A stretch of DNA of 64,000 nt, from NCBI GenBank assembly GCA_031761405.1, contig JASEVX010000001.1, positions 202,076,390 to 202,140,389 on the forward strand, given 5' to 3'. This document shows, in pieces, positions 2,678 to 47,704 of this stretch. Numbering within the stretch: the first letter of the stretch is position 1; each line of letters opens with the position of its first letter. Both the position numbers and the translations under genes were made by a program. A model generated the notes under the pieces. That model was not told the DNA's origin. It made no database searches and was given only the letters and a program-made list of their open reading frames with translations. Source of the DNA: Serripes groenlandicus (Eukaryota > Mollusca > Bivalvia > Cardiida > Cardiidae).

Positions 2678-3750
2678 ATTATTGTTTATTCTCTTTCTTC
2701 TATCCAAATTTTTGTCCGAGCGATATCTCATGAACTAATGGTCAGATATTATTGAAACTTGGAACATAGATAGATGGCAATGTGAAGTTGTGCAAGAGGC
2801 AAAAATGATAACTCTGAGCCCCTTTTTTGCAAAGTTATCTCCCCTTTTTCAATATTTAAATCAAGTTTTGTCCGAGCGATATCTTGTGAACGAATGGTCA
2901 GATAATATTTAAACTTGGAACATAGATAGATGGCATTGGTAAGGTGTGCAAGATTGAAGAATGATAACTCTGAGCCACTTTTTTGCAAAGTTATCTCCCC
3001 TTTTTCATTATTTTAATAATTTGGTGATTAAAGCTTGTATAACTCGATAACGAAAAGTGATAGAGACTTGAAACTTAGTACAAGTGTTCCCAATTAAGTG
3101 ACCTACTTTCTCATGTGTATTTGAGCATGACCGAATACTCGCTTCTGATTGGTCGATTTTTCGGACTTGTATAACTCAAAAACGACAAGTGATAGAGACT
3201 TGAAACTAAGTATATGTCTTTCTAATGAAATAGTACTACTTTCTCATGTGTATTAGCGCATGACCGAATACTCGTTTCTGATTGGTCGATTTTTCTGACT
3301 TGTATAACTAAAGAATGACTAGTGATAGAGACTTGAAACTTAGTACATGTGATTCTAATCAAGTAGTACTACTTTCTCAAGTGTATTAGCGCATGACCGA
3401 ATGCTTGTTTCTGATTGGTCGATTTTTCTGACTTGTATAACTCAAAAACGAAAAGTGATAGAGACTTGAAACTTAGTACATGTATTTCTAATCAAGTGGT
3501 ATTACTTTTTCAAGTGTATTAGCGCATGACCGAATACTCATTTCTGATTGGTCGATTTTTCGGAATTGTATAACTAAAAAACGACAAGTGATAGAGACTT
3601 GAAACTTAGTACATGTGTTCCTAATCAAGTGGTACTACTTTCGCAAGTGTATTTGCGCATGACCGAATACTCGTTTCTGTTATCTCCCATTGTTAAATAA
3701 AATGGCAAGGGAATCGTTCGTAACTGTTGCTACAGTTACAATCTCTAGTT
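2678..3750 (+). mobile_element. Element family F, body copy 2 (head to tail)
   Basis: Same order of sub-repeats and same 3' hairpin as the preceding copy. It begins directly at the CTCTAGTT terminus of that copy and lacks the 5' ACGATTCCC hairpin. This tail-to-head junction looks like a concatemer rather than an independent insertion. Confidence 0.65.
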
Positions 3751-4655
3751 CTTATTATTATTCTTCTTCTTCTTCTTCTTAACTTTTGTTTGTCCAGAGC
3801 AGAACTCGGAAACTACTTGAAGTAATTGATTGAAACTTGGAACATAGATAGATGGCAATGTGAAGTTGTGCACCTTGCAAGAATTATAACTCTGGGCCAC
3901 TTTGTTGCAAAGTTATCTGCCCTTGTTCAATATTTTAATAGTGTAAACTTTGTCCAGAGCAGAACTCAGAAACTACTTGAAGGAATTTATTGAAACTTGG
4001 AACATAGATAGATGGCAATGTGAAGTTGTGCACCTTGCAATAATTATGAGTTATCTCCCCCTTGTTCAATATTTTAATTGTGAAAACTTTGTCCAGAGCA
4101 GAACTCAGAAACTACTTGAAGGAATTTATTGAAACTTGGAATATAGATAGATGGCAATGTGAAGTTGTGCACCTTGCAATAATTATGAGTTATCTCCCCC
4201 TTGTTCAATATTTTAATAGTGTAAACTTTGTCCAGAGCAGAACTCAGAAACTACTTGAAGGAATTTATTGAAACTTGAAACATAGATAGATGGCAATGTG
4301 AAGTTGTGCACCTTGCAATAATTATGAGTTATCTCCCCCTTGTTCAATATTTTAATAGTGTAAACTTTGTCCAGAGCAGAACTCAGAAACTACTTGAAGG
4401 AATTTATTGAAACTTGGAATTTAGATAGATGGCAATGTGAAGTTGTGCACCTTGCAATAATTATGATTTATCTCCCCTTGTTCAATATTTTAATAGTGTA
4501 AACTTTCTCCAGAGCAGAACTAAGAAAGTACTTAAAGGAATTTATTGAAACTTGGAATATAGATAGATGGCAATGTGAAGTTGTGCACCTTGCAAGAATT
4601 ATAACTCTGGGCTACTTCGTTGCAAAGTTATCTCCCCTTGTTCAATATTTTAATA
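3751..4655 (+). mobile_element. Element family F, truncated third copy, about 139-bp units
   Basis: Starts with TTATTATTATTC(TTC)n, then about five units of roughly 139 bp (GTCCAGAGCAGAACTCAG ... GTGCACCTTGCAA). It breaks off without the F 3' tail exactly where the transposase fossil begins. Confidence 0.65.
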
Positions 4656-5446
4656 GTCATTGACAAACTGCAATGGGGAGACATATGTTTTTTCATAAAA
4701 ACAACCTTTCTAGTTCCAGTTGGACTAATGCCTAATAGTGCTTTATAAGTCATATAGGATTTGTAGCTGGAAAACATCAGCGACTTATTTGACAAAGATT
4801 CAGGTGTCTCTGAAAAAAATTCTGTACAGTCCATTATGACACAACAGTTAGGATGTTTCCTACTGAACTTGATTTGCATAAATTTGTTGACTAGTTCTCT
4901 GCTTGGCCAATCGGTCAAGAACGAGAGTTTTAAATGTAAATATTTAATCCATTTCTCACATATGACTCCACATGTAGTTTTAATATGAAAAATCTGTCTG
5001 CTAAATCTCCTAATAAAAGCCCTAGTCTTAACCTCATTAACACCATAAAAGATTCATCAATTAGATGAAGAATTCTTGGACGCCCTGTTCCTGAATTTGA
5101 ATTAGATGCATTTCTTTTAGTTTTTTCAGACTAATCACTCATTTCATCAAACAACGTATAAAATACTTGCTTATTTGGCAGTCCCGTGTAAAACCTACAC
5201 TTTTCATCAGAGTTAATGTCTTCGATTGTCATTGTTGGTTTGTTACACTGTGTGCCTGAATTTGCAAATGGTTTGATTGGCACTGGCTGGGATTTTTGTA
5301 AACAGTCACAAAGTTTCGTGGCATAATAAGTTTCATTTTCGTCAAAGATCATTTCGGTTTGTGTGGAGGCGTCAGATTTATCTGTATTTGGCGTTTGTGT
5401 GCATACTGAGGTACTTATAATCCCAATGTTTGTTTGGCAATCCTTA

Positions 5447-5907
5447 TTATACCCTCAGATACGTAGTATATGGGGGCTATCTAGGAGTCACGCTTGTTGG
5501 TCGGTCGGTCGGTCCGTTGGTCTGGACATTTCTTGTGAACACTATTTCTCAGCAACCCTTATTTAGAATTCAATATAACTTCACAAGAATGATTGATACC
5601 AAGCCTGGTTGTGCATATTGTCGGCGTGTTGCACAGGAATTATTTTTAAATGAGTTATGGCCCCTTGAATTTCTCATACATAGTTGGTCTGTAGACATTT
5701 CTTGTGAACACTATTTCTCAGCAACCCTTTGTCAGAATTCAATATAACTTCACAAGAATGATTGATACCAAGCCTAGTTGTGCATATTGTCGGCGTGTTG
5801 CACTGGAATTATTTTTAATTGAGTTATGGCCCCTTGAATTTCTCATACATATGTATATTGTCAGGCACCAGCTGGGCGTATTCATCACCTTCAGTGATAT
5901 TTCTAGT
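5447..5907 (+). mobile_element. Element family G, copy 1, inside the transposase fossil
   Basis: TATACCCTCAGATACG is followed by GGTCGGTCGGTCGG and two units of about 170 bp (CACTATTTCTCAGCAACCC, CACAAGAATGATTGATACC). The 3' end has CAGCTGGGCGTAT, the hairpin ATCACcttcaGTGAT and TTTCTAGTT. Transposase reading frame lies on both sides. Confidence 0.8.
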
Positions 5908-6486
5908 TAAAGTGTTATTCATGTCATCAACTTCAACTATACCCACATAATCATGAAATAGTAAAGATGTTTGCTCCGATGTATGGCCACTTTTGAGGTT
6001 GACTGTTTGCCTACGGGGCTCTGGTTTCTCCAATGGTTGTACGTTGTCATCAATGACCATTGGAGTGATGTTTTCCAACTAAAATTAAAATAAAATATAA
6101 ATATAAGTCCATATCTACAAAAGTTCAATACATATTGAATACAAATTCAACAGAAGAAAATAAACAATAAGAAAATTTACCCCACCCATCGGTTTTCTAA
6201 TAAATTTTACAATTTTATTGTGGGAAGAAAATAAATAATTAGAAAATTACCCCATCATTCTGTTTTCTAATAAATTTTACAATTCTAATTTATGAGAGTC
6301 ACTTTTCATTATTTTTTATTATTTTTAAAATTGTTTAAACATACAAATGTATGAACAAAATGCTTGCAGTAGTTGTGTTGAAACGTCTTTCACCAAACAT
6401 CGATGGAACCATATTCTTCTCAAATTTGCCCCCGACGAAGTGCTCAAAACAAAGACGTTGAGAGTCGTTGTGTTTGAAGCCCTTTT

Positions 6487-7670
6487 TAGCTCACAAAGTG
6501 CAAGGTGAGCTTTTGTGATCGCTCATTGTCCGTCATCGTCGTCGTCCGTCTGTTCACATTTTCCTGCAAACGACTTCTCCTACACCAATTAACCAAATTC
6601 AAAATAACTTTACAGGAATGTTCCTTGGGTGGATCTCTTTCAAACTTGTTCAAAGAATTCTATTCTATGCAGAACTTTGGCTGCCACGGCAACAAAAAAG
6701 GGAAAATTATCCAAAACTTAAAAAATCTTCTTGTCTGAAAGTAGAAGGCCCATGCCTTTGAAATTTGCTATGTAGCATCATCTAGTGAACCTCTACCAAG
6801 ATTGTTCAAATTATAGCCCTGTGGTCAAAATGACTCCTCCCCTGGGGTCTATTGTTTTACATAGACTCATATAGAGAAACGACTTAAAAAATATAATTGT
6901 CTAAAAGTAGAGGCCCCATGCTTTTGACATTTGATATGTAGCATAATCTAGTAGACCTCTACCAAGATTGTTCAAATTATAGCCTGGGGTAAAAAATAAC
7001 CCCTCCCTGGGGGGTCACTTGTTTGACATAGACTCATATACGGAAAAAACTTTAAAAATCTTCTTGTCTAAAAGTAGAAGGCCAAGGCCTTTGATATTTG
7101 GTATGTAGCATCATTGTAGACCTCATCCAAGATTGTTCAAATTATAGCCCTGAGGTAAAAAATTACCCCTCCCTGGGAGTCACTTGTTCTCCATAGACTC
7201 ATAGAGAATTTCTTTTAAAAATCTTCTTGTCTAAAAGAAGAGGGCTCAACCTTTGATATTTGGTATGTAGTATCATCCAGTGGACCTCTACCAAGATTGT
7301 TCAAATTATAGCCATGGGGTCAAAAATGACCCCATCCTGGGGGTCCCTTGTTTTCCATAGACTCATTTAGGGGAAAACTTTAAAAATCTTCTAGTCTAAA
7401 AGTAGACTATTACCCCTCCCCGGGGGTCACTTGTTTTAAATAGATAGGGAAAAAACTTTAAAAATCTTCTTGTCTAAAAGATATTTGGTATGTAGCATCA
7501 TCTAGTTGACCTCTACCAAGATTGTTCAAATTATAGCTCTGGGGTCAAAAATGACCCCTCCCCCCGGGGGTCACTTGTTTTTCATAGTCGCATATAGGGG
7601 AAAGAACACTGAAAACATTTTAAGTTTGATTAAATCAGGTGAGCGATATAGGTCCATCATGGTCCTCTTA
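6487..7670 (+). mobile_element. Element family H, copy 1, inside the THAP-coding part
   Basis: 5' hairpin AGCTCAC..GTGAGCT, then GTCCGTCATCGTCGTCG. Several units of about 170 bp follow (AAAATCTTCTTGTCTAAAAG, CCTCTACCAAGATTGTTCAA). The end has TCAGGTGAGCG, a degraded GGTCCATCATGGTCC hairpin and CTCTTAT. It separates the two halves of a THAP zinc finger. Confidence 0.75.
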
Positions 7671-7822
7671 TTCAATAGTTTGATTCGTCTTATCCATGCA
7701 TGCTTAACTCTGTCATTCATAGGAAACCTATGCAACGAAACAATACGTCCATTTACGTTTTTCCCTCGATAATGTGAGCATACGATACAATAATGTCGCT
7801 TTGTTGGTGTTGATTCGTCCAT

Positions 7823-8124
7823 TTTGAGAAAACTCTCCGGAAGTGACTGAAAACGGTGCGATGGTCTTTATTGATTTCTATTTGTAAAGAGTAGCGCAAA
7901 GGGAAGTAAAAAATCCAAGAACGGTAACACCTTTCCGGACAGGGCAATACATCTGGATTAATCATTAACATTTTTATTTTACATATTATGCTTTAAGGGA
8001 AACTCATTTGAACATTTTGTTCATTCTGACATTGTATATTTCAATAAATAAATACATAAATAAATAAAAGTGAAAATAGAATCTATATAAATATGTATGT
8101 ATTTTCACATTAGATACGTTTTAT
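7823..8124. other. Sequence upstream of the transposase fossil, nothing recognised
   Basis: AT-rich DNA 5' of the fossil start codon on the minus strand. I looked for a terminal inverted repeat of the transposon and saw none. Confidence 0.4.
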
Positions 8125-8500
8125 TATGCTCCCCAAACTAGTTTGGGAGAGCATATAGTTGTCGCTTTGTCCGTCCGTCCGTCCGTGTCCGTCACACTTT
8201 GTCACACTTTATTTGCATTGAGCATAAATCTAAAAGTACTGAATATATTTCAATGAAACTTGAAATATACATACATATCAATAAGAGAGAGTGCATAATA
8301 CAAGAGCCATAACTTTATAGTGAATACTTTTCAAATTATCTCCCTTGTTAGACTTTATATTTCGATGTCGGGACCATAACTTGGAAAAATACTCAAGATA
8401 TTTCGATGAAACTTGAAATGTATAGAGATATTTAAGAGAGGAAGTGCATTGCACAAGAACCATAACTTATAATAAATAATAAAAATTTACTCCCTTGTTT
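8125..8500 (+). mobile_element. Element family I, 5' part
   Basis: 5' hairpin GCTCCCCAAAC/GTTTGGGAGAGC, then GTCCGTCCGTCCGTCC and two units of about 150 bp (CAATGAAACTTGAAATATAC; AAGTGCATAATACAAGAGCC). No 3' hairpin or inverted GAGCAT partner is present, so the 3' end is missing. Confidence 0.65.
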
Positions 8501-8625
8501 TTATTATTTTCTTTTAATGAAGTCTGTATTATGTAAATATAATGACACTAATGAAGTCTGTTTTATGTATTATATAAATATAATGGACAACTATTTTGCA
8601 TATGTGTTAAGAAATTGAAAGGTTC

Positions 8626-8740
8626 TTTACACGACAATGAAATATGGCAATGGATCAGCGGATGTTTTCCTTTACACGACAATGAAATATGGCAATGGAT
8701 CAGCGGAAGTTTTCCTTTACACGACAATGAAATAACAAAT
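8626..8740. repeat. About 45-bp tandem repeat, 2.4 copies
   Basis: TTTACACGACAATGAAAT..GGCAATGGATCAGCGGA is repeated at 8626, 8672 and 8717 (last copy partial). The near identity suggests a recent tandem duplication. Confidence 0.8.
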
Positions 8741-9576
8741 AAAAGAAATTATATATCTGTACAAATTTATGCTACTAATTTGCAGGTATGATCACTAGTT
8801 AGAGGTAGTTCTATCAGACAATGCCTATTATCACTTGACAAAGCCCTTATGGGGAACATCATTTCCTTCCACCGATTCCTTGTTTTGAATGTTACATTAC
8901 AAAATGGTAAGTCTTACAATGGGAACAATGTTGATCGTCCAATTAATGTGATTTCGTGGTTGTTTACATGGTCCTGTCTAATTACACTGTTGCCAAATCG
9001 GTATAGCTAGATAGCGAAAACAACTTGGATGTCACGAAAACAACTTTACATATGACTAATATGAGTATAGGTGCTACCTATTTCGGGTAAACATTTATTA
9101 ATTTTTGTGATTGGTAAATCATTCCCCGGAATTGCAGCACGAGTCCTACCGTCCTTAGCAAAGAAAATAAAAATCATCATCCGGTTAGGCATAATATTTA
9201 ACAATAAAATATGGCCAAGATTTTAAATCCATGAAATTATGATGACAGGTACAAAAAATAATCAACTTGGCCTTCATTAAGAACCTCCAATGAAGTGATT
9301 CCATAATTTACGAAACTACATTTGTGACGAGTCAAACAATCCTTTCTGTCGTTTTTACTTTTGGTTATTTATTCATCATTTGCGTTACGCTAATAGAATG
9401 ACGTTGTATTATAGAAATTTGGATGTGTAACTTCCAGAAAGTCAAAAAACCATTATCAGTTTTTATTTGAACTCGTTTTAAAAAATAGACGGCGAGTGTT
9501 ATTAAATGCAAATTATCACACATAAAATTACTTGTGCTTGTTCCTATATCGAGTACGTATTATCATATTTAATTAT
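8741..9576. other. AT-rich intergenic DNA with a dispersed-repeat fragment
   Basis: No gene seen. A stretch near 9003-9060 (GATAGCGAAAACAACTTGGA...GTCACGAAAACAACTT) recurs near 11520 and, inverted, near 26880. Confidence 0.45.
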
Positions 9577-11162
9577 TATACCCCCAAAAAACAAAGTTTT
9601 GGGGGGGTATATAGGAGTCACTGTGTCGGTCGGTCGGTCGGTCGGTCGGTCGGAAGCCATATTTTGTCCGGCCCATATCTTAACCATGCATCATAGGATT
9701 TGAACGAAACTTCATAGGATGATACAACACAATGAGAGGAAGTGCGGTGTACAGAAGCCATAACTCTATTTTACCTAAATACAGAGTTATTGCCCTTTGT
9801 TACTTTTTCTTGTCCGGAGAATTACTTAATAACTAACAGATGGAATCTAATAAAACTGCATACAATGGTAGAGCATACTCAGAGGAAGTGCAGTGTACAA
9901 GAACCATAACTCTAATTTACATAATTACAGAGTTATTGCCCTTTGTTACTTTTTCTTGTTCGTAGAGTCTTGTCCAGAGCATAACTTTAAAACAAATTGT
10001 TGGAATTTAATAAAACATCATAGGATGATACAACACAATAAGAGGAAGTGCGGTGTACAGAAACCATAACTCTATTTTACCTAAATACAGAGTTATTGCC
10101 CTTTGTTACTTTTTCTTGTCCGTAGAATTACTTAATAACTAATAGATGGAATCTAATAAAACTACATTTAATGGTAGAGCATAATCAGAGGAAGTGCAGT
10201 GTACAAGAAACATAACTCTACTTTACATAATTACAGAGTTATTGCCCTTTGTTACTTTTTCTTATTTGTAGAGTCTTGTCCGGAGCATAACTTGAAAACA
10301 AATTGTTGGAATTTAATAAAACTTCATAGGATGATACAACACATTAAGAGGAAGTGCGGTGTACAGGAACCATAACTCTATTTTATCTAAACACAGAGTT
10401 ATTGCCCTTTGTTACTTTTTCTTGTCCGGAGAATTACTTAATAACTAACAGATGGAATCTAATAAAACTGCATACAATGGTAGAGCATAATCAGAGGAAG
10501 TTCAGTATACAAGAACTATAACTCTAATTTACATAATTACAGAGTTATTGCCCTTTGTTACTTTTTCTTATTCGTAGAGTCTTGTCCGGAGCATAACTTT
10601 AAAACTGATTTTTGGAATTTCATAAAACTTCATAGGATGATACAACACATTGAGAGGAAGTGTGGTGTACAGGAACCATAACTCTATTTTATCTAAATAC
10701 AGAGTTATTGCCCTTTGTTACTTTTTCTTGTTCGTAGAGTCTTGTCTGGAGCATAACTTTAAAACTAATTGTTGAAATTTAATAAAACATCATGGGATGA
10801 TACAACACATTGAGAGGAAGTGCGGTATACAGGAACCATAACTCTATTTTACCTAAATACAGAGTCATTGCCCTTTGTTACTTTTTCTTGTCCGGAGAAT
10901 TTACTTAATAACTAACAGATGGAATCTAATAAAACTACATACAACGGTAGAGCAAAATCAGAGGAAGTGCAGTGTACAAGAACCATAACTCTAATTTACA
11001 TAATCACAGAGTTATTGCCCTTTGTTATCCAAAAATGAACAAAACAAGAATAACCCGATCCATAACATTGTCCTTTTAAGGTGGGGTTTCTAAATATTTC
11101 ACAACCTTTCCTATCAGAGCGGCGTTTGGGGGTATTAATCACATTCAGTGATAGTTCTAGTT
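9577..11162 (+). mobile_element. HINE/pearl-like element family D, copy 1, with dimeric core array
   Basis: 5' hairpin ACCCCCAAAA..TTTTGGGGGGGT, then (CGGT)n. The core array alternates two related unit types: one with ACTTAATAACTAACAGATGG and one with GTCCAGAGCATAACTTTAAA. Spacing of the shared CAGAGTTATTGCCCTTTG alternates about 145 and 160 bp, giving a higher-order period of about 305 bp. The 3' end has TTTGGGGGTAT, a short ATCA..TGAT stem and GTTCTAGTT. Confidence 0.8.
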
Positions 11163-16090: not shown

Positions 16091-17491
16091 TAGCTCACCT
16101 GAGCTTTGCTCAAGGTGAGTTATTGTGATCGCCTTTTGTCCGGCGTCCGTCGTGCGTCGTGCGTCAATTTCTTCTCCTCAGTAACCAGTGGGTCAATTTG
16201 GATGAAACTTCACAGAAAGCATCCTCTCAATGACCTCACCAGAATTCCTTCAAATTTTTGGGATCCATGCAAAATTCTGGTTTCCATGGCAATGAAACCG
16301 AAAAAACTTCAAAATTCTTCTCCTCCCGAATTGGTAGATTTTCAAATAATTTTGTAGAAATGTTCCTTGGATGACCCTCTATCAGATTCCTTCAAGCCGT
16401 GTTGATTGGGCGAAAAACATGGCCGCCAGGGGGGGGTGGGGCTATTTTGCCTTATATGGCTATAGTGAAAACTTAAAAAATCTTCTCCTCCGAAAGTGTA
16501 AGGCCGATTTTCAAATAATTTTGTAGAAATGTTCCTTGGGTGACCCTCTATCAGATTCCTTCAAGCCATGTTGATTGGTCGAAAAACATGGCCGCCAGGG
16601 GGGGCGGGTCTATATTGCCTTATATGGCTATAGTGCAAACTTAAAAAATCTTCTCCCCTAAAAGTGTCAGGCCGATTTTCAAATAATTTTGTAGAAATGT
16701 TCCTTGGGTGATCCTCTATCAGATTCCTTCAAGCCATGTTGATTGGTCAAAAAACATGGCCGCCAGGGGGCGGGGCTATTTTGCCTTTTATGGCTATAAT
16801 GAAAATTTAAAAAATCTTCTCCTCCATAAGTGTCAGGCCGATTTTCAAATAATTTTGTAAAAATGTTCCTTGGGTGACCCTCTATCAGATTCCTTCAAGC
16901 AATGTTGATTGGTCGAAAAACATGGCCGCCAGGGGGCGGGGGCTATTTTGCCTTATATGGCCAAAGTATAAACTTAAAAAATCTTCAACATCTTCTCCTC
17001 AGTAACCAGTGGGTCAATTGGGATGAAACTTCACAGAAAGCATCCTCTTAATGACCTCACCAGAATTTCTTCAAATTTTTTGGGATCCATGCAGAATTCT
17101 TGTTTCCATGGCAACGAAACGAAAAAAAGTATAAAGTGTCGGCCCGATTTTCAAATAATTTTGTAGAAATGTTCCTTGGATGACCCACTTTCAGATTCCT
17201 TCAAGCCATGTTGATTGGTCAAAAAACATGGCCGCCAGTAGGCAGGGCTATTTTGCATTATATGGCTATAGTGAAAACTTAAAAAATCTTCTCCTCCAAA
17301 AGTATCTGGCCGATTTTCAAATAATTTTGTAGAAATGTTCCTAGGGTGACCCTCTATCAGATTCCTTCAAGCCAAGTTGATTGGTCGGAAACTATGGCTG
17401 CCAGGGGGCGAGGCTTCATATATATATAGCTAAAGTGAAAAAAAATAAAAAATCAGGTGAGCGATTCAAGGGCCATCATGGCCCTCTTGTT
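16091..17491 (+). mobile_element. HINE/pearl-like element family A, copy 2
   Basis: Same 5' hairpin, GTCCGTCGTGCGTCG tract, about seven tandem units, TCAGGTGAGC, GGGCCATCATGGCCC and CTCTTGTT as the other A copies. Around 16990 the leading unit (CAGTAACCAGTGGGTCAA) recurs inside the array, so the array was extended by duplicating its first unit. Confidence 0.8.
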
Positions 17492-17653
17492 TCATGTGGT
17501 GTTTTCTTAAAACTTTTTAATTTTGTGATTTGTATTGATATCTTGAACAAAATAAGCTTTTATGACCAAAACAAATAGTGAAAAAAAGATGTGTGCTATT
17601 TTTAGGACACATATCTTATTTACTGAACACAGTGGTTTGAAAAAGTGTTTTAT

Positions 17654-18279
17654 TAGTCCCCTACCGGCGTGCCGAAGGGGATTTTAGTCCCCTACCGGCG
17701 TGCCGAAGGGGACTATTAGGTTTGCACTCCGTCCGTCAGTCCATCTGTCAGTCAGTCAGTCAGTCAGTCCGGCAAATCAGTTTTCCGCACTTTTTTTCTA
17801 CATGCTTTGAGGTATTGAGCTGAAATTTTGTATATGCCTTTGTAATCATGTGTCACAGATCAAGTTCGCGTTTCCTGGGATTTCGTCAATTTTTTAATGA
17901 GTTATGCCCCTTTTTGGACTTAGAATATTCGTTTTCCGCACTTTTTTTCTACATGCTTTGAGGTATTGAGCTGAAATTTTGTATATGCCTTTGTAATCAT
18001 GTGTCACAGATCAAGTTCGCGTTTCCTGGGATTTCGTCAATTTTTTAATGAGTTATGCCCCTTTTTGGACTTAGAATATTCGTTTTCCGCATTTTTTTTC
18101 TACATGCTTTGAGGTATTGAGCTGAAATTTTGTATATGCCTCTGTAATCATGTGTCACATATCAAGTTCGCGTTTCATGGGATTTCGTCAATTTTTTTAT
18201 GAGTTATGCCCCTTTTTGGACTTAGAATATTAATCGGTAGGGGATTATGGTATTGCTTGCAATCCTACAGTTACTTGTT
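17654..18279 (+). mobile_element. HINE/pearl-like element family B, copy 1, with duplicated 5' end
   Basis: TAGTCCCCTACCGGCGTGCC with its AAGGGGA stem partner occurs twice in direct order (17654 and about 17685). Next come (GTCA)n and three units of exactly about 151 bp (GCACTTTTTTTCTACATGC). The 3' end has CGGTAGGGGA, the hairpin ATTGCttGCAAT and TTACTTGTT. Confidence 0.8.
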
Positions 18280-27261: not shown

Positions 27262-27906
27262 ATGGCATTGAAAAGAACAGATAAAAGGAAACAAACAAGA
27301 GGGAAATTTGGACAGCCTACTGGACGTCAAAGTAGAAGATACAAAACAGCAGAAAAACAATATCTTGAAAAACAACTTAAGAAAGTAAAACTATACTCCT
27401 GATAACAAACATTAAAAACCCTACCAAATAATAAGAAAACAAGAAGAATTCCAATTGTTCATCATAAGAAAGGTAAACTTTTAAAACTTGGAACGTCCTT
27501 ATTGAAATTCAAGATGCATAGTTCAGAAGAAAATTTTTGGTTACAGAATCATTAACGTAGCAAATCTATCAAAGTATGTGAATGAAATAACATTGTTGCT
27601 TTCGCTCTGAAGCCCAGATAATTGCATCTAACGACGAAGATCCCATTGTGTTACGATCAGAAATGAAAAAACATGGGTTATTCAGTGTGTTTTTGGCAAT
27701 TTGTAAAGGTTGTGATCAAAAATTTAACTTGGAGACAAGCCCTGAACAACAAAATGAGCATCATGTGATATTAATGTGTTTGAAGTATGGGGAACTGTTG
27801 CTAGCAGGTGTGGCTGAGACATCGGACCTTAATGAAATACTAACTACAATGGACATTCCTCCAATGAATGAAAGGAAGTTTACTTGTTTAGAACAAGAAA
27901 TTAGTA
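27262..27906 (+). pseudogene. Fossil Mutator-like transposase, N-terminal part
   Basis: An ATG at 27262 opens a basic stretch (MALKRTDKRK) that stops after about 46 codons. Frames then shift through LSKYVNEI. From 27648 it reads ICKGCDQKF...YGELLLAG...LTTMDIPPMNE and EQEISTWW, the conserved N-terminal part of the 'Mutator-like transposase' domain protein common in molluscs (family recognition from memory, no search). Several stops and frameshifts make it a pseudogene. The remainder is at 32820-34440, beyond a stack of insertions. Confidence 0.7.
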
Positions 27907-28114
27907 CTTGGTGGCATATGTTCACTTTAAATCAGAGCACTGCAGTGATGACGGCCTGGGGGCTGCTGGAAGGTTGGAGAAGTAGAGGAAATGTGAAAGG
28001 AAATAACAATTGCAGCTTATATTTATGTATTTATTGTCAAGAAGTTGAAAGATCATGTCAAAAATAGTAAATTTTATTAAACTGCCAATTTAAAAACAGA
28101 AGGACCTTGTTGGC

Positions 28115-28555
28115 ACTATATCGCTCACCTGAGTGCAAGAGCTCACACGTATACACATTTAAGACATGAAGAATCAAAGGGAAATTTGACAGCAGGTTTA
28201 GGCAGAATATTTTGAAGTTTCTGCATTATTATATTGAGAAATATGTCAATGTTAAATCACATTCCATCAAGTTGAAATAGTTCTCTAAACCATGTACTAG
28301 ACTTGGAGAAAGTGTTTGAAATATGCAAAACTCATCAAGACAATTATTCTGACAAAGATTCAAAATGCAGCATCCAGTGTGTTATCAAGATTTTCCTTCA
28401 TTTGGCCTAGTGACCTATTTTGTTTACCCGATATGACCCTTATTCGAACATGACTAGATATCATTAAGATAAACATTCTGACCAAATTTTAAAAAACGTG
28501 GCCTCTACAGAGTTGACAAGATTTTCCTTCAATTTGGCCTAGTGAACTAGTTTTT
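28115..28555 (-). mobile_element. Element family M (reverse orientation), left part
   Basis: The left end ATCGCTCACCTGAGTGCAAG is the reverse complement of the usual 3' TCAGGTGAGCGAT, so M appears inverted relative to its neighbours. The body has diverged units of about 130 bp (TTTTCCTTCA.TTTGGCCTAGTG, ATCA.TAAGATAAACATTCTG). It is split by element A and resumes at 32400. Confidence 0.6.
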
Positions 28556-28587
28556 AGCTCACCTGAGCTTTGCTCAAGGTGAGTTAT
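28555..28587 (+). mobile_element. Element family A copy 3, 5' piece
   Basis: TAGCTCACCTGAGCTTTGCT...GGTGAGTTAT stops at the T where element B is inserted. It continues at 31682 with TGTGATCGCC, exactly as in uninterrupted A copies. Confidence 0.85.
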
Positions 28588-29168
28588 TAGTCCCCTACCG
28601 GCGTGCCGAAGGGGACTCTTAGGTTTGCACTCCGTCCGTCAGTCCGTCAGTCAGTCCATCTGTCAGTCAGTCAGTCAGTCCGGCAAATCAGTTTTCCGCA
28701 CTTTTTTTCTACATGCTTTGAGGTATTGAGCTGAAATTTTGTATATGCCTTTGTAATCATGTGTCACAGTTCAAGTTCGCGTTTCCTGGGATTTCGTCAA
28801 TTTTTTAATGAGTTATGCCCCTTTTTGGACTTAAAATATTCGTTTTCCGCATTTTTTTTCTACATGCTTTGAGGTATTGAGCTGAAATTTTGTATATGCC
28901 TCTGTAATCATGTGTCACAGATCAAGTTCGCGTTTCCTGGGATTTCTTTAATTTTTTAATGAGTTATGCCCCTTTTTGGACTTAGAATATTAATAAATCA
29001 GTTTTCCACACTTTTTTTCTACATGCATTGAGATATTGAGCTGAAATTTTGTATATGGCTTTGTAATCATGTGTCACAGATCAAGTTCGCGTTTCATGGG
29101 ATTTCGTCATTTTTTTATGAGTTAAAGCATGCTTTATTGTCTTGATAACCTCAGTTTTCCACACTTTT
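28588..29168 (+). mobile_element. Element family B copy 2, 5' part
   Basis: TAGTCCCCTACCGGCGTGCC, (GTCA)n and three 151-bp type units, interrupted in a T run (CACACTTTTT) by element C. Resumes at 31453. Confidence 0.85.
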
Positions 29169-31452
29169 TAGATCACCTAGAGCCGAAGGCTCAAGGTGAG
29201 CTATTCTGATCACTTTTTTGTCCGTCGTCCGTCGTCCGTCGTCCGTCCGTCCGGCGTTAACTTTTAGCTTTAAACATCATCTCCTCCCAAACTCCAAGGA
29301 CAATTTCCGTGAAACATCACAGGACTGTTCCTCTGGTTGGCCTCTTTCAAAGTTGTTCAAAGATTTAAATTCCATTGAGAACTTTGGTTGCTGCGGCATC
29401 AAAAAGGGGGCAAAATGTCCAAACTTTAAAAATCTTCTCCTCCGAATCTGCCTGTCAGATTCAAATATAATTTGGTAGAAATGTTCCTTGGGTGACCCTC
29501 TATAAAAATTGTTCAAGCCATACTGATTGGTCAAAAAACATGGCAGTCAGGCGGCATCAGAAAAGGGGCAAAATGACAAAATGACAAAATTCCATTCTTA
29601 TGAAAGTGCTTGTCTGATTTTAAGAAAATATAATACGAATCTTACTTAAATGATCCTCTATTTAATTTGTTTAAGCCGTTTTGATGGGTAACACAATCAT
29701 AGCAACCAGGCGTCATCACAAAAGGGGTAAATTGAACTTTTAGCTACAAATGACAACCAACTCCTACCATTCCAATAGACCAATTTCCACAAAACATCAC
29801 AGGAATGTTCCTTCGGTGGTCCTCTTTCAAATTTGTTCAAAGAATAAAATTCCATTGAGAACTTTGGTTGCTGCGGCATCAGAAAGGGGACAAAATGTCC
29901 AAACTTTAAAAATCTTCTCCTCCGAATCTGCCTGTCAGATTCAAATATAATTTGGTAGAAATGTTCCTTGGGTGACCCTCTATGAAAATTGTTCAAGCCA
30001 TACTGATTGGTCGAAAAACATGGCAGTCAGGCGGCATCAGAAAAGGGGCAAAATGACAAAATTTGAAAATTCCATTTTTATGAAAGTGTTTGTCTGATTT
30101 TAAGAAAATATAAAACGAATTTTACTTTAATGATCCTCTATTTAATTTGTTAAAGCCGTTTTGATTGGTTACACAATCATAGCAACCAGGCGTCATCACA
30201 AAAGGGGTAAATTGAACTTTTAGCTACAAATGACAACCAACACCTGCCATTCCAATAGACCAATTACTACAAAACATCACAGGAATGATCCTTTTGTGGT
30301 CCTCTTTCAAAATTGTTCAAAGATTAAAATTCAAATGAGAACTTTGGTTGCTGCGGCATCAGAAAGGTGACAAAATGTCCAAACTTTAAAAATCTTCTCC
30401 TCCGAATCTGCCTGTCAGATTCAAATATAATTTGGTAGAAATGTTCCTTGGGTGACCCTCTATAAAAATTGTTCAAGCCATACTGATTGGTCGAAAAACA
30501 TGGCAGTCAGGCGGCATCAGAAAAGGGGCAAAATGACAAAATTTGAAAATTCCATTTTTATGAAAGTGTTTGTCTTATTTTAAGAAAATATAATACGAAT
30601 CTTACTGTAATGATCCTCTATTTAATTTGTTTAAGCCGTTTTGATTGGTTACGCAATCATATCAACCAGGTGTCATCACAAAAAGGGTAAATTGAACTTT
30701 TAGCTACAAGTGACATCCAACTCCTACCATTCCAATAGACCAATTTCCACAAAACATCACAAGAATGTTCCTTTGGTGGTCCTCTTTCAAAATTGTTCAA
30801 AGATTTAAATTCCATTGAGAACTTTGGATGCTGCGGCATCAGAGAGTGAGAAAAAATACCCAAATTTTAAAATCCTTTTCCTCCATAATCTACTTGTGCG
30901 ATTGCAAGATAATTTGGTAGAAATGTTTCTTAAGTGACCCTCTAAATAAACTGTTGAAGCCATATTGATTTGGTTGAAAAACAGCGCAGCAAGGCGGCAT
31001 CAGGAAAGGTGCAAAATGACAAAAACTTTATAATTCCATTCTTATTAAAGTTCTTGTTAGATTTCAAGATATAAATGGCCTTTACTGATAAGCTGTTTCT
31101 TGAGAAGTGTCCACTCCTTTCAGTGGAAGACAGTGGTGCAGAGGTAGAGCGTCGGCCTCTCGTATCAAAGGTCCCTGGTTCGAGTCCCGTGATGAGCGTG
31201 TCCTGACTTTGGGATTTTTCCACACAAACGGCGCGAGTACTGGTGAAGTCTCCAGGAAGCAGACATCGAGCGTGATTAATCTAAGCCCAAGGCTTGTTTC
31301 ACAATCGATGTAAAATAAATAAGTTAAAACTAAACTCCTTTCAGTTTCATTTGCACTCCCTGATAAAATTTTCCAGATATTTGCAGTTAAATATTTGCTA
31401 CTAATTTACTATCAATTAGGTGATCGATTTAGGGCCATCTTGGCCCTCTTGT
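29169..31452 (+). mobile_element. Element family C, with about 480-bp units
   Basis: 5' AGATCACCTAGAGCC...GGTGAGCT, then GTCCGTCGTCCGTCG. Long tandem units of about 480 bp start near 29256, 29735, 30215 and 30695 (ACTTTTAGCTACAA, ATTCCAATAGACCAATT). The 3' end has TTAGGTGATCG, the hairpin GGGCCATCTTGGCCC and CTCTTGTT. Contains a SINE with target duplication at 31125. Confidence 0.8.
31113..31345 (+). mobile_element. tRNA-derived SINE with 12-bp target duplication
   Basis: ACTCCTTTCAGT occurs at 31113-31124 and 31334-31345 and brackets a 209-bp insert. The insert has an A-box-like GTGCAGAGGTAGAGCG and a perfect B box GGTTCGAGTCC (31177-31187), i.e. an internal RNA polymerase III promoter. It ends in an A-rich AAATAAATAAG tail. 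It is not a functional tRNA gene: no acceptor pairing is seen. Confidence 0.85.
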
Positions 31453-31681
31453 TTTCTACATGCATTGAGATATTGAGCTGAAATTTTGTATATGGCTTTG
31501 TAATCATGTGTCACAGATCAAGTTCGCGTTTCATGGGATTTCGTCATTTTTTTATGAGTTAAAGCATGCTTTATTGTCTTGATAACCTTAAATATTGAGT
31601 TGCTATGACAACAGAAACCAAGTCAAAACGTGCAAACCGGTAGGGGATTATGGTATTGCTTGCAATCCTACAGTTACTTGT
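31453..31681 (+). mobile_element. Element family B copy 2, 3' part
   Basis: Resumes with TTTCTACATGCATTGAGA and ends with ACCGGTAGGGGA, ATTGCttGCAAT and TTACTTGT. A unique stretch (GAGTTGCTATGACAACAG) precedes the end and is absent from copy 1. Confidence 0.85.
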
Positions 31682-32399
31682 TGTGATCGCCTTTTGTCCG
31701 GCGTCAGTCGTGCGTCAACTTCTTCTCCTCAGTAACCAGTGGGTCAATTTGGATGAAACTTTACAGAAAGCATCCTCTCAATGACCTCACCAGAATTCCT
31801 TCAAATTTTTGGGATCCATGCAAAATTCTGGTTTCCATGGCAACGAAACCGAAAAAACTTCAAAATTCTTCTTCTCCCAAATTGGTTGGCAGATTTTCAA
31901 ATAATTTTGTAGAAATGTTCCTTGGGTGACCCTCTATCAGATTCCTTCAAGCCATGTTGATTGGTCGAAAAACATGGCCGCCAGAGGGGGCGGGGCTATT
32001 TTGCTTTATATGGCTATAGTGCAAACTTAAAAAATCTTCTCCTCCAAAAGTGTCAGGCCGATTTTCAAATAATTTTGTAGAAATGTTCCTTGGATGACCC
32101 ACTTTCAGATTCCTTCAAGCCATGTTGATTGGTCAAAAAACATATCCGCCAGTAGGCAGGGCTATTTTGCATTATATGGCTATAGTGAAAACTTAAAAAA
32201 TCTTCTCCTCCAAAAGTATCTGGCCGATTTTCAAATAATTTTGTAGAAATGTTTCTAGGGTGACCCTCTATCAGATTCCTTCAAGCCAAGTTGATTGGTC
32301 GGAAACTATGGCTGCCAGGGGGCGAGGCTTATATAGCTAAAGTGAAAATAAAATAAAAAATCAGGTGAGCGATTCAAGGGCCATCATGGCCCTCTTGTT
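31682..32399 (+). mobile_element. Element family A copy 3, body and 3' end
   Basis: Starts TGTGATCGCCTTTTGTCCGG and carries about three core units, TCAGGTGAGCGATT, GGGCCATCATGGCCC and CTCTTGTT. Completes the 5' piece at 28555. Confidence 0.85.
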
Positions 32400-32520
32400 T
32401 AACAGACATGACCAATATTCAAACTTGGACTACATATCATCAAGACAAACATTCTGATACAGTTTAAACCTGCTCAAGTTAAAAATGCAGCCTCCATTAT
32501 GTTAACAAGATTTCCGTTCG
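32400..32520 (-). mobile_element. Element family M, right part
   Basis: AACAGACATGACCAATATTC and ATCATCAAGACAAACATTCT continue the M unit interrupted at 28555. Confidence 0.55.
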
Positions 32521-32819
32521 GGCACGGGCCATATGGGCCCCCACTAAATCCGCCACTACATTTACCACGCTTTTTCTTTGTTTACCATTAATTTTTGATG
32601 CACGGCCCCCCGGTTAATTCGCCACTGTATATTGCACGCAACTTATTTCTTTTTTTCCGTTCCTCTTCGCGAATGTTAATTATGTTAACAAGCGTCCATA
32701 TTTGACCTCTCGGCGCACTAATTTCTAAAGCATTTCTTAAACTTATATTGGAGTACTCACGCAGATCCTTACCTTTTAAATGCAGTTTTGTTGAATCCAT
32801 GATGAACTATTTTTCTCGT
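32521..32819. other. Spacer before the C-terminal Mutator-like block
   Basis: A minus frame of 70 codons (32588-32800) is clean but unrecognised. TTTTTCTCGTGCAG at the right edge could be a 3' splice site for the plus-strand transposase. Confidence 0.35.
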
Positions 32820-34440
32820 GCAGTTCTCAGTGCGTTGTATTGTGTTATCAGCAATTGGCAGGCTGCCAACTCCGAAAAAATGGTGTTACTACTATGACCA
32901 GGGGTTAAAGCCCCAGGCCAAAAATGAAATGGGAAAGGCTGCTGCAGAAGAAAAGTGTAAAGCTATACAAAAGGGACACTTTCATGAGGGTATTCCATCT
33001 ATTACTGTCATTTGTGATGGGGGTTGGTCAAAGAGAAGTCATAAACACTCATATAATGTAGCTGGGGGAGTAGCAGTGATATTTGGAGCGGGACAAACAA
33101 ACTTCTCTATATAGGTGTAAGAAACAAATTTTGTCTACTTTGCCGAAGAGCTGAAAATAAAGGAGAAAAACCTTCACAGCACACATGCTTCAAAAATTGG
33201 ACTGAAAGCTCTCAAGCGATGGAGGCTGATATAATCTTGAAGGGGTTTTTGCAAGCAGAATCTGACTGGATTAAGGTACACTAAAATAATTGCAGATGGT
33301 GATAGCTCTGTTTTTCCCACATTACAAGAGAATGTGCCCATCTGGGGAAAGGACATTAAGAAATTGGAGTGTGCAAACCACACTTGTAAATGTTTGAGGA
33401 TCAATTTAGAGAAACTGATATGTGAAAAGCCCCAATACAAAGGTAAAGGGAAATTAACAAAAATAAACAGAATTAGACTGACAACTGCCATAAGATGTGC
33501 AATAAAAATGCGTTCAGTGACAAATGATAGTAAGCAGCTCAACATCATAAATTCAATTTACCATATCTTGGGTTTTCATTCTAGATGCAGTGATTTCTGT
33601 AAAAAAAAATGAATAAAATACAAATGAAGAATCGTTTGACCAGATATTTTCAGACCAGAGCAACTTTTGGGAAATCCCCTTTGACACAGAATTGGAAATG
33701 GCTAAACAACCTTGTAAAAATCAAGTTCCCCTTAGTGAAATAAAAGACATAAATTATTCAAGATGTGCAAATCCTTTTGAATAGACTTGCTAATAAACGT
33801 TTAATTGGTAATTTTATCACAAAACTGGCCGATAGTTGGATGGCAATTATAGGAAAGTTTGATGGGGAAAAGTTGTGAATCGCTGTGGTTGTGGCTCCTG
33901 GGAAACAAGAAGTTTTGGAGGTGCGCTTCGTAAAAATTTGGGAAATACTTAATTGGTCCTTCATGACATTCCAAACAGTAACTTCTATGCAGGCAGGAAA
34001 GTATTTTCACCAAGGGGCCAAAAGTCAGTTTCATAAGTTAACAAGTTCCCGAAAATATAAGGAGAAACCCATCAGCAAAATGTTACGAAGAAAGCGTTAG
34101 GTCCAGGATGTTAGTGTCAGTTCCTCAAAAAAAGCCCAGAGAAGCTATGGATGGTCAACTTGATGACTGATGATGTAGATAGTGAACAGCTAAAAACATT
34201 ATGTGATACCTTCATAAATACTAACTTTTCAAAAAGTAATGAAGAAATAGAGAAAATACAAGAAACTACTAAAGATCAAAGTATGTCGGAAACATGGAAA
34301 ACGATTGACCAGTTTATCATTTGGAAAAATAATTAAAAGAAAGATCAATAATAAGTCAACAGCTATTGTTAAAGATATATCAAACTCAAATTTTAAAGGA
34401 AATATATATACCAACAAAGGGCTATATCAACTCAAATTTT
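32820..34440 (+). pseudogene. Fossil Mutator-like transposase C-terminal part with YqaJ-type domain
   Basis: Reads NEMGKAAAEEK and DGGWSKRSHKHSYN. It shifts frame near 33105 into YIGVRNKFCLLC and again near 33272 into IADGDSSV, then WGKDIKKLECANHTCKC, YKGKGKLTK and CSDFC. Further on come LIGNF..KLADSW and KFDGEK, a stop, and NRCGCGSW in another frame. From about 34151 MTDDVDSEQLKTLC leads to SETWKTIDQ and, shifted, SFGKIIKRK...NSNFKGN, the start of a YqaJ/lambda-exonuclease-like domain. The element class joins a transposase with a nuclease; this copy has at least four frameshifts and is dead. The domain pairing is family knowledge recalled, not searched. Confidence 0.72.
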
Positions 34441-34539
34441 AAAGGAAATATGTATACCATCAAAGGGCTATCATAAGGAAAAAACACAATTATTGAATAT
34501 AAAAATTTAAAAGGAAATGTGGAAGTGACAGGATTTAAA

Positions 34540-35480
34540 ATATGTGAAACCACCCAGTTTTTAGGTGTTTTGATCAGCGGAATTTTCCTCAATACTGAAT
34601 GATAATTGTGAAATGTGGGGTTTTAAGAAGGCTGAAAACCTTGAGCAAGTCCACAGAAAATTCTGCAAGTGGTTAATTAATGTAAAAAAGGTCAACAAAC
34701 TCACTAGCTTTATACTCAGAACTTAATAGATTCCCACTTTACATAAATAGGAAGATCCGTATAATTAAATATTGGTTAAAACTACGGGCTGAAAGCTTCT
34801 AACTGCATATTATCTACCATAGTTACTCGCCAACGTAGAGAAATAACGAAAAACAGTGATGTTAGTAACTGGTCAAGAAAGGTTAGACATCTGCTAGAGT
34901 CGTCAGGTTTTTCTGACATTTGGTTATATCCTGAATCCGTTTTAGTGAATAGGTTTATACCTATAATTTCCCAACGATTTAAAGATAACTATGTGAATCA
35001 ATGGTAAGCAAGCATCCAACTACCCCCTTCACTATATTTTTACAGATCATTTAAAACTGATTTCGCTTGAGCAGGGTATCTGGACATATTAGAAACCAAA
35101 TCATTTTGACAATCAATTGCCAAACTTAGACTTTCATCCCATAATCTAATGATAGAAAGTGGTAGACATAGACAAAATTAACAGAAACAACAGCCTGTCA
35201 GGAAATGTGAGCTTTGTCCTTTAAATGATTTAGAAGATGAATACCACTTTGTTATAATTTGTCCATTTTTTACCCAAATAAGGAACAAAATACATTGAAA
35301 AATACTACGTTAATCTACCAAATGTATTCAAATTTACAAGACTGATTGATTCTACAAATAAAAAAAAACCTAGCCAAACCTGCTCTTTATTGTATATATG
35401 CTTTTAAGCTGAGAAACCAATATATGTTGAATACCAATAACTGATGTACTAATATGATAAGATTTGTATCATATATATAT
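34540..35480 (+). pseudogene. LINE (non-LTR retrotransposon) ORF2 C-terminal fragment
   Basis: Across several frames: NCEMWGFKKAENLEQVHRKF, ELNRFPLYINRKIRIIKYW, then WSRKVRHLLESSGFSDIWL and a terminal zinc-knuckle-like CELCPLND..EDEYHFVIICP. This order is the region after the reverse transcriptase of animal LINEs. Reverse transcriptase and endonuclease are missing (5' truncation is typical of LINE insertion). Many stops. Clade not assigned. Confidence 0.65.
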
Positions 35481-37378: not shown

Positions 37379-38807
37379 TAGCTCACCTGTGCACGAAGTG
37401 CTCAAGGTGAGTTATGGGATCGCCCTATGTCCGTCGTCCGTCGTCCATCGTCCGTCGTCCGTCAACATTTTCTCCTCTGTAACCGGTGGGTCAACTAGGA
37501 TGAAACTTCACAGAAAGCATCCTCTCAATGTCCTCACCAGAATTCCTTAAAATTTTCGGGATCCATGCAGAATTCTGGTTTCCATGGCAACGAAATGAAA
37601 AAAACTTCAAAATTCTTAAAAAATCTTCTCCTCCGAAAGTGTCAGGCCGATTTTCAAATAATTTTGTAGAAATGTTCCTTGGGTGACCTTCTATCAGATT
37701 CCTTCAAACCATGTTGATTGGTCGAAAAACATGGCCGCCAGGGGGGGCGGGGCTATTTTTCCTTATATGGCTATAGTGCAAACTTAAAAAATCTTCTTCT
37801 CCAAAAGTGTCAGGCCGATTTTCAAATAAATTTGTAGAAATGTTCCTTGGGTGACCCTCTATCAGATTCCTTCAAGCCATGTTGATTGGTCAAAAACATG
37901 GCCGCCAGGGGGCGGGGCTATTTTGCCTTTTATGGTTATAGTGCAAACTTAAAAATCTTCAACATCTTCTTCTCAGTAACCGGTGGGTCAATTGGGATGA
38001 AACTTCACAGAAAGCATCCTCTCAATGACCTTACCAGAATTCCTTCAAATTTTTGGGATCCATGCAGAATTCTGGTTTCCATGGCAACGAAACGAAAAAA
38101 ACTTCAAAATTCTACTTCTCCCTAACTGGTTGGCAGATTTTTAACTTATTTTGTAAAAATGTTCCTTGGGTAACTCTCTATCAGATTCCTTGAAGCCATG
38201 TTGATTGGTCGAAAAACATGGCCGCCAGGGGGGGGCGGGGCTTTTTTGCCTTATATGGCTATAGTGAAAACTTAAAAAATCTTCTCCTCCAAAAGTGTCA
38301 GGCCGATTTTCAAATAATTTTGTAGAAATATTCCTTGGATGACCCTCTATCAGATTCCTTTAAGCCATGTTGATTGGTCGAAAATCATGGCCGCCAGGGG
38401 GGGGCGGGGCTATTTCGCCTTATATAGCTATAGTGCAAACTTAAAAAATCTTCTCCTCCAAAAGTGTCGGGCCGATTTTCAAATAATTTTGTAGAAATGT
38501 TCCTTGGATGACCCTCTATCAGATTCCTTCAAGCCATGTTGATTGGTCAAAAAACATGGCCGCCAGGGGGCGGCGCTATTTTGCCTTTTATTGCTATAGT
38601 GAAAACTTAAAAAATCTTCTCCTTCAAAAGTGTCAGGCCGATTTTCAAATAATTTTGTAGAAATGTTCCTAGGGTGACCCTCTATCAGATTCCTTAAAGC
38701 CAAGTTGATTGGTTGGAAACTATGCCCGCCAGATGGCGGGACTTATATAGCTATAGTGAAAAAAAAAATCAGGTGAGCGATTCCAGGGCCATCATGGCCC
38801 TCTTGTT
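37379..38807 (+). mobile_element. HINE/pearl-like element family A, copy 4
   Basis: 5' AGCTCACCTGTGCACGAAGT...GGTGAG, GTCCGTCGTCCATCGTCC, then about eight core units. The leading unit (AACCGGTGGGTCAA) recurs at about 37977. Ends TCAGGTGAGCGATT, GGGCCATCATGGCCC, CTCTTGTT. Confidence 0.8.
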
Positions 38808-39180: not shown

Positions 39181-39993
39181 TTAGCTCACCTAAGCACGAA
39201 GTGCAAGGTGAGCTTTTGTGATCACTCAACGTCCGGCGTCCGTCGTCGTTGTCGTCTGTCCGTCTGTTAACAATTTCCTACAAATGACTTCTCCTACTAA
39301 ACCAATGGACAGATTTCAAAATAACTTCACAGGAATGGTCCTTAGGTAGTCCTCTTTCAAAGTTGTTCAAAGAATTTAATTTCAAGTAGAACTTTGGTTG
39401 CTGCAGCATCAGAAAAGGGGAAAATTGCTAAATCTTAAAAAATCTTCTTGTCCAAAAGTACTGGCCCGATTTGAAAATTATTTTGCACAAATGTTCCTTG
39501 GGGCACCCTTTACCAAGATTGTTCAAATATTTCTGATCCGTTAAAAAACATGGCCGCCCGGGGGCGGAGCTTGTTTTCCTTATATCTGCATCATTTTGTT
39601 AAAACTTTAAAAATCTTCTTGTCCAAAAGTACTGGCCCGATTTGAAAAGTATTTTGCACAAATGTTCCTTGGGCCACCCTCTACCAAGATAGTTCAAGTA
39701 TTTCCGATCCGTTGAAAAAACATGGCCGCCGAGGGGCGAAGCTTGTTTTCCTTATGTGTGCATTGTTAAAACTTTAAAAATCTTCTTGTCCAAAAGTATT
39801 GGCCCGAAATAAATAGAAATTCAGCTGATAACAAAGTCTTCATTACTTAAAACTTTATAACACTTTTCCAAATTGATAGTAATGGAGCACTGCTGAGCCT
39901 CTATTTTTGTCTCAAATGTGTTATTGTGCTTGACATAACCAATCACAAAAAATAAATCAGGTGAGCGATCCAGGGCCATCATGGCCCTCTTGT
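39181..39993 (+). mobile_element. Element family H, copy 2
   Basis: AGCTCACCTAAGCACGAAGT..GGTGAGCT, GTCCGTCGTCG tract and units of about 170 bp (CTTGTCCAAAAGTACTGGCC). Ends TCAGGTGAGCGATC, GGGCCATCATGGCCC, CTCTTGT. Confidence 0.8.
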
Positions 39994-45778: not shown

Positions 45779-46090
45779 TACAAGAAGCTAGATCTGCAGT
45801 AGAGGATTTTATGATCTCCAAGGACGTAGTGTACAGGACGAATAAAACAGTAACATTGTCCTGCAGTTTCATCGATAACGAACCACCACCGGACATCAAC
45901 ATCATCTGGCACCATAACGAAAAACTGAAACCACTGTTCATTGGACCGCCCACTTTACTGGATGATTCCAACCAAAGGTTCTCCAACCAGTTGGTAATTG
46001 ATAAAGCCAGTAGGAATGATGCGGGCAGATACAGCTGTACGGTTGAAGGAGATCCGTCGATTGTCTCCACTACCCTGACGGAAGTATCAG
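45779..46090 (+). CDS. Ig-domain gene, exon 2: immunoglobulin domain
   Basis: A 312-bp exon between TTTCTCTTTAG and G|GTATGT, phase 1 at both ends, so it is a symmetric Ig-type exon. Its 104 codons read VQEARSAVEDF, then VTLSCSF (B-strand Cys), INIIWHH (core Trp), LVIDKASRND and DAGRYSCTV (the D.G.Y.C motif with the F-strand Cys), ending TTLTEVSG. All key residues of a single Ig fold are present, with no stop. It joins the signal peptide exon at 36247. Codon use is GC-richer than the surrounding DNA, as expected for a selected exon. Which Ig family it belongs to, and whether it acts in adhesion or immunity, cannot be told. Confidence 0.82.
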
Positions 46091-46370
46091 GTATGTCAAC
46101 ATATTCTTTATTAGTCGCCGGGCAGAAGCCCGTGACTTATGTTTTTAATAGCTTTTCGGAAATGGCATGGGAGGACGAGTTATTATTAGATTTTTTTTTT
46201 TTTAATGTCTTGAACATATTACAATTGTGTTTGTTTAAAAATACTGAGTTATGACACATCTTAAATGATATAAATAATCCGATATTTTAAGTATTTGCAG
46301 TTTCTTTATTTTGACTCACATTTATGTTTTTTGACTTATTTACTAAGACAAAAGAGTCCCTGTTAAGCCA
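46091..46370. other. Start of intron 2, no feature recognised
   Basis: Begins GTATGTCAAC at the Ig donor; AT-rich. Confidence 0.5.
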
Positions 46371-47524: not shown

Positions 47525-47549
47525 GTTCTACAACTACTACTACTACTAT

Positions 47550-47585
<36 letters not shown>

Positions 47586-47588
47586 CTT

Positions 47589-47619
<31 letters not shown>

Positions 47620-47660
47620 CTACTACTACTACTACTACTACTACTCCTACTACCTACTAG

Positions 47661-47704
<44 letters not shown>

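Follow-up and report, generated by a model that had tools for sequence, protein, structure and literature searches.

How did approximately 5 kb of DNA come to lie between the two halves of a broken Mutator-like transposase gene? We address this question for a stretch of 64,000 nucleotides from the bivalve Serripes groenlandicus (assembly GCA_031761405.1, contig JASEVX010000001.1, positions 202,076,390 to 202,140,389 of the forward strand). This whole 64-kb stretch is called the window, and all coordinates count from its first letter. It has an A+T content of 64% and is rich in tandem arrays whose repeat units measure about 130-180 bp. An earlier note had described a stack of insertions six levels deep in the region 27262-34440 and had considered the two outer levels less certain than the rest. 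We find all six levels at the claimed site, nested in the order Mutator-like transposase > M > A > B > C > short interspersed nuclear element (SINE). Serial insertion of mobile elements at a single spot in a bivalve-like genome is the best explanation, and we hold it with high confidence. A, B, C and M are one kind of element (HINE-like), an identification which the earlier note did not make. Intact copies for comparison are found in the same window, for A at 16091-17492 and for B at 17653-18279. From left to right, the locus comprises the following features.

27262-27914, plus strand: left part of the broken Mutator-like transposase; it begins at an ATG and carries frameshifts and stops.
27915-28097, no strand assigned: sequence separating the transposase break from M; it contains GGCCTGGGG at 27953, which may be the left end of an additional element.
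28098-28554, minus strand: left piece of M; a decayed 3' end (subterminal inverted repeat, weak palindrome, TCTGT), then tandem units of approximately 130 bp.
28555-32398, plus strand: A, HINE-like; 750 bp of its own sequence, interrupted by B.
28588-31681, plus strand: B, HINE-like; 810 bp of its own sequence, interrupted by C.
28999-29151, plus strand: monomer 3 of B, identical at 153 of 153 positions to monomer 4, the one that C interrupts.
29169-31452, plus strand: C, HINE-like; 2063 bp of its own (the duplicated 12 bp counted once) and higher-order tandem units of approximately 480 bp; it hosts the SINE.
31113-31124, plus strand: left copy of the SINE target duplication, ACTCCTTTCAGT, 12 bp.
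31125-31333, plus strand: SINE body, 209 bp, with a tRNA-type A box at 31134, a B box at 31177 and an A-rich tail.
31334-31345, plus strand: right copy of the SINE target duplication, ACTCCTTTCAGT, 12 bp.
32399-32520, minus strand: right piece of M, in which the third tandem unit is resumed; M lacks its 5' end, lost at approximately 32520.
32521-32919, no strand assigned: debris with two (C/T)AGTGGCG starts, a minus-strand open reading frame (ORF) and CCCCAGGCC at 32911-32919, which may be the right end of an additional element.
32920-34599, plus strand: right part of the broken Mutator-like transposase, reaching the YqaJ-like C-terminal region.

The nesting itself is demonstrated by the joins. 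A test had been named beforehand, namely that restored A and B should align with their intact copies; it was run, and both align across the junctions. A had been described as split by B inside GAGTTAT|TGTGATCG. When the flanks of A are joined without B, they align to intact A over 57 columns (33 left and 24 right of the junction) with neither mismatch nor gap, and only after these follows a 7-base gap in the microsatellite. Out of 441 joins scored, the top score was reached only by the exact join and its equivalent one-base slides. The identity of restored A (aligned columns, gaps excluded) is 97.7% with 16091-17490, 97.1% with 641-1593 and 93.1% with 37379-38806, and the copies at 641, 16091 and 37379 are all without B at the corresponding site. 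In global alignments the matching of the junction columns is lower (49 of 57 for the intact copy A1, 48 of 84 for A2, 41 of 57 for A3) because of gaps in the adjacent microsatellite and, for A3, also because the sequence differs and is gapped at the site and ahead of it. A random-join control (A versus A2, mean 0.40, maximum 0.84) is unusable, because by this measure the true join reaches 0.57.

The split of B by C passes the same kind of join test: against intact B, to which B is 96.8% identical over 592 aligned bases, the top score belongs only to the exact join and its one-base slides. The only other match to B in the window (approximately 17653-18279) is without C. The last monomer of B was tandemly duplicated before C entered one of the two copies. 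We conclude on a tandem duplication because the shared sequence takes in part of the tail of B. The absence of any difference between the two monomers implies that duplication and insertion of C followed each other closely, barring a conversion event. The identical monomers had also prompted the idea that C made a long target duplication; this was rejected, as the right copy runs on into the tail of B. In global alignments the junctions of B and C fall into gaps (7 of 50 columns matched for B, 0 of 50 for C), since the intact copies contain fewer units or units of another kind, and the evidence for the B junction rests on local alignments. C matches 39182-39993 at 80.8% over 767 aligned bases. 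The latter interval is a further HINE-like element with both ends present.

The innermost level had been described as a SINE in C with a 12-bp target duplication. The duplication is demonstrated by two perfect copies, at 31113-31124 and 31334-31345, and for C the empty-site evidence is limited to it. The element is labelled a SINE because tRNA-type promoter boxes, an A-rich tail and a target duplication occur together. Its B box is an exact match and the sole one in the window; a second A-box match with one mismatch exists, so that the A-box criterion is loose. The SINE matched no Rfam family and no tRNA in ARAGORN, and a second copy was not found in the window at an E value of 1e-5.

Judged by their sequence features, A, B and C look like HINEs, i.e., non-autonomous Helentrons. 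The ends of these elements, their T-rich sites and the absence of a target duplication are directly observed. All three begin with TAG and end with CTTGT. The best ungapped matches between their 5' and 3' subterminal inverted repeats comprise 11 of 14 positions in A, 13 of 14 in B and 10 of 14 in C, counted without a shuffle control. The 3' palindromes of A and C reach -8 kcal/mol each, and only 4 of 200 (A) and 2 of 200 (C) shuffles are as good. The restored insertion sites read TTAT|TGTG (B in A), CTTTT|TTTCT (C in B) and AGTTTT|TTAAC (A in M). Among the seven elements for which both ends were delimited (A, B, C, A1, A2, A3 and D), the 5' flank ends in T in all seven and the next 3' base is T in five; this count leaves out intact B (B1) and the 3' ends at 559-580 and 7650-7671, and TT makes up 11.9% of the dinucleotides of the window. 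Tandem arrays are present with units of 166 bp in A, 151 bp in B and 158/480 bp in C. The microsatellites consist of GTCA at 28634-28680 (B) and GTCCGTC at 29220-29257 (C), while that of the nested A was seen by eye only. Exact scans for the A-type 3' end gave no matches in viral contigs and none in genome contigs, two sets that possibly do not cover records of this genome itself. Within 1958-11027 lie several more satellite-like arrays (periods 133-169 bp), which may be further HINE-like elements.

M is most likely a HINE-like element in reverse orientation that has lost its 5' end at approximately 32520. Its 3' end (28093-28132, minus strand) resembles those of six HINE-like elements, including A, with 75.6-87.5% identity over 32-41 nt (E value 1e-5 for the best match, 0.007 to 0.28 for the others). 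The 3' end of C is not among them. The units of M at 28332-28421 and 28461-28553 are 75% identical. Across A, 32395-32457 aligns to 28420-28481 at 82.5% and 32482-32519 to 28362-28399 at 84%, and the joined third monomer aligns to monomers 1 and 2. The units of M thus resume after A, in agreement with the claim that M is split by A at a T run.

The outermost level, described as a transposase fossil split in two, is well supported, because Pfam pieces and blocks of related proteins are found on both sides of the break; here and for M, the doubts about the two outer levels have given way to better support. PF20700 (gathering cut-off 26.5 bits) is matched in the left piece at profile positions 35-120 (E value 5.1e-08, 32.7 bits) and in the right pieces at 119-180, 190-236 and 233-350 (36.1, 53.6 and 61.2 bits). 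A fifth, N-terminal piece has no match to PF20700. With tblastn, residues 2-97 of the relative P0004 were placed at 27268-27513 and residues 56-161 of P0003 at 27591-27914. To the right, residues 27-256 of P0002, in which a YqaJ domain is found, match 32920-33600 at 62%, followed by more blocks up to 34599. Out of 120 listed relatives, 11 were placed on the window; eight of them align to the left and to the right of the break, the other three on the right only. The left blocks end at 27914-27923, and the right blocks start at 32920 in seven relatives and at 32947 in one. Between the two blocks, the eight relatives have 4, 4, 4, 3, 2, 4, 1 and 13 residues. Homology thus halts near 27914 and restarts at 32920 in the relatives placed, which delimits the interrupting DNA to approximately 27915-32919 as judged from the alignments. 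Those of the 120 relatives that carry a species name come almost entirely from molluscs (Pecten, Ruditapes, Tegillarca, Pinctada, Mytilus and others), with one from a sponge. On either side of the break, the fossil matches the domain of the Mutator-like PF20700 transposases with YqaJ, which occur in molluscs among others; unlike them, the copy here is broken by stops, frameshifts and the insert. A 46-bp tandem duplication lies within its right half (34376-34471). Right after the transposase homology, at 34600-35400, translations resemble by eye the C-terminal part of a long interspersed nuclear element (LINE) reverse transcriptase; three pieces have no Pfam match above cut-off.

M spans only 28098-32520 of the interrupting DNA, which leaves 183 bp on the left and 399 bp on the right. 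The left remainder (27915-28097) contains at most nine bases with transposase homology in any relative placed. In the right remainder, the two (C/T)AGTGGCG starts point in the same direction on the minus strand (approximately 32560 and 32631) and, we presume, resemble terminal repeats of DNA transposons. The short minus-strand ORF begins at 32800; none of its 18 candidate homologues reached an E value of 0.1 or below, and its lone Pfam match was below cut-off. The sequence GGCCTGGGG at 27953-27961, separated from the left transposase block by 38 bases, has a single counterpart in the window, an inverted copy at 32911-32919, and this right copy is flush with the resumption of the transposase. 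No exact inverted match between left and right is longer than nine bases. This length by itself is ordinary, being reached by 439 of 1000 resampled left stretches, and two other 9-base matches exist. The flush position is unusual: such a match occurred in 13 of 20000 resamples, in a post-hoc test of a pair first spotted by eye. By-eye inspection yielded no clear target duplication for a possible element around M. When gaps are allowed, an inverted match pairs 27900-28100 with 32521-32930; as the ends of a further element it was rejected, since 71% of 300 shuffles were equally good. The 9-bp pair hints at a further element hosting M; if it is real, the stack has seven levels. All six levels claimed do exist, and six is probably a lower bound, because 32521-32919 is other debris and the possible further element (27953/32919) encloses M. 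The extents given earlier change as well: M is on the minus strand and reaches left to approximately 28098, 32521-32919 does not belong to it, and the Mutator homology extends to approximately 34599.

Several observations weigh against this account. The 3' hairpin of B is a weak short inverted repeat that 95 of 200 shuffles equal, and the decayed one of M is equalled by 158 of 200. M is without a 5' end, and most matches to its 3' end are individually weak (E values up to 0.28). The exact join of A in M scores 113, the best shifted join 121, with a one-base ambiguity in the T run. The next 3' base is C in A2 and A in D. No autonomous Helentron turned up in the window, in which no search aimed at one was made. 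The debris at 32521-32919 is ill-suited to a simple account of six layers.

Other histories could produce a similar arrangement. The gap in the transposase might be an intron of the gene that received the elements later, and indeed only four residues are missing at the break in four of eight relatives, as expected of a neat intron. P0003, P0004, P0007 and P0008, among others, are on the other hand single predicted proteins that run uninterrupted through the break. P0008, a named gene model, may cross an intron, whereas P0004 (489 aa) stems from a contig of 1663 bases, which has room for little intron unless the contig is mRNA-derived. We regard an intron as quite unlikely. The interleaving could also stem from recombination or shuffling between satellite-like arrays instead of insertion. 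In a review on oyster, "shuffled" loci are reported to contain truncated and tandemised parts (PMC12628747), and at our locus B has acquired a duplicated monomer and M is truncated. Recombination is, however, unlikely to produce repeatedly what is seen here: both termini are preserved in A, in B and in C, and on the far side of B and of C the host element continues with base precision. The complete termini at three levels largely refute this idea, and we consider it extremely improbable.

Serial insertion still leaves the question of where each insertion took place. Inner layers may already have been inside their carrier when it jumped, e.g., B may have reached A with C and the SINE on board, and the local order would then not be given. 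Rolling-circle elements can carry long inserts, and B plus its insert retains both ends. For nested maize Helitrons, it was hypothesised that they had moved on jointly (PMC3288121). The window, in contrast, holds no second composite, as the copies of A lack B at the site and the other match to B lacks C. Such composite transposition appears unlikely. Which element received which can be read from the stack as claimed; the sequence of ages follows only if every insertion happened in place. We infer that each inner element arrived at the locus itself and not within a carrier. The readable age order is likely correct and is not proven, because B holding C keeps both B ends and could have moved as one unit.

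Under serial insertion, a Mutator-like (PF20700) transposase gene would first have been disrupted by an insertion of approximately 5 kb, represented today by the minus-strand M together with other debris, perhaps the remnant of a further element hosting M. A would then have inserted at a T run of M, and B in A, between the 5' inverted repeat of A and its microsatellite. C would have followed at a T run within the newly duplicated monomer of B. Finally, the tRNA-type SINE would have entered C, presumably via target-primed reverse transcription, giving rise to the 12-bp duplication. For A, B, C and M we infer rolling-circle movement: they were most likely mobilised by Helentron transposition with proteins from elsewhere, joining at T|T without a target duplication.

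Several known systems come close to this one. PMC7492417 reports HINE architecture and TT preference for eleven Cg_HINE elements of the oyster Crassostrea gigas, some of them within other repeats. As described there, the Cg_HINEs share with our elements a 5' subterminal inverted repeat with a complementary inverted repeat, a GTCC-type microsatellite, a central array of mostly 140-180-bp monomers, a 3' subterminal inverted repeat with palindrome (clear in A and C), and a T-rich or TT site without duplication. Unlike them, C has higher-order units of approximately 480 bp; the comparison is one of architecture. DINE-1/HINE Helentrons (PMC4067079) have in common with our elements subterminal inverted repeats, an inverted repeat, a 3' stem-loop, a microsatellite, TT preference and border Ts; these are families of Drosophila, mosquito and mite, and they were compared by description. 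The nested maize Helitrons likewise are rolling-circle elements within rolling-circle elements (PMC3288121). They differ in their CTAG-type end and in that the nested intermediate was inferred, whereas the nest is directly visible here. Oyster elements inserted within other Helitron elements are mentioned in PMC12628747; its "shuffled" satellite DNA/Helitron loci show truncation and tandemisation, in contrast to three layers with both ends here. A narrow search of literature titles and abstract openings found no description of a HINE stack at least three deep with complete ends.

The locus is thus a clean, well-resolved nest of an already known kind, as nested Helitrons and Helitron insertions have been reported in maize and oyster. 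It is a well-preserved textbook case, with three HINE-like layers that have both ends and, for A and B, uninterrupted controls in the same 64 kb that fix the joins to the base (within equivalent one-base slides). The nest provides a concrete intermediate for different satellite arrays coming to share one mobile element and leaves the general picture unchanged. The outer ends of A now enclose the arrays of A, B and C; if they still function, a single jump would spread a three-array element. Whether nesting across families at T-rich sites is the step that generates HINEs with at least two unrelated satellite arrays is rather doubtful. If true, it would explain the double-array Cg_HINEs, for which PMC7492417 gives no more than alternative hypotheses of origin.

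Two features of the window lie apart from the nest. An ORF at 45811-46254 encodes an immunoglobulin domain (PF13927, E value 1.5e-10) and is probably an exon of a host gene. A CTA trinucleotide array of approximately 58 copies at 47528-47704 overlaps an ORF.

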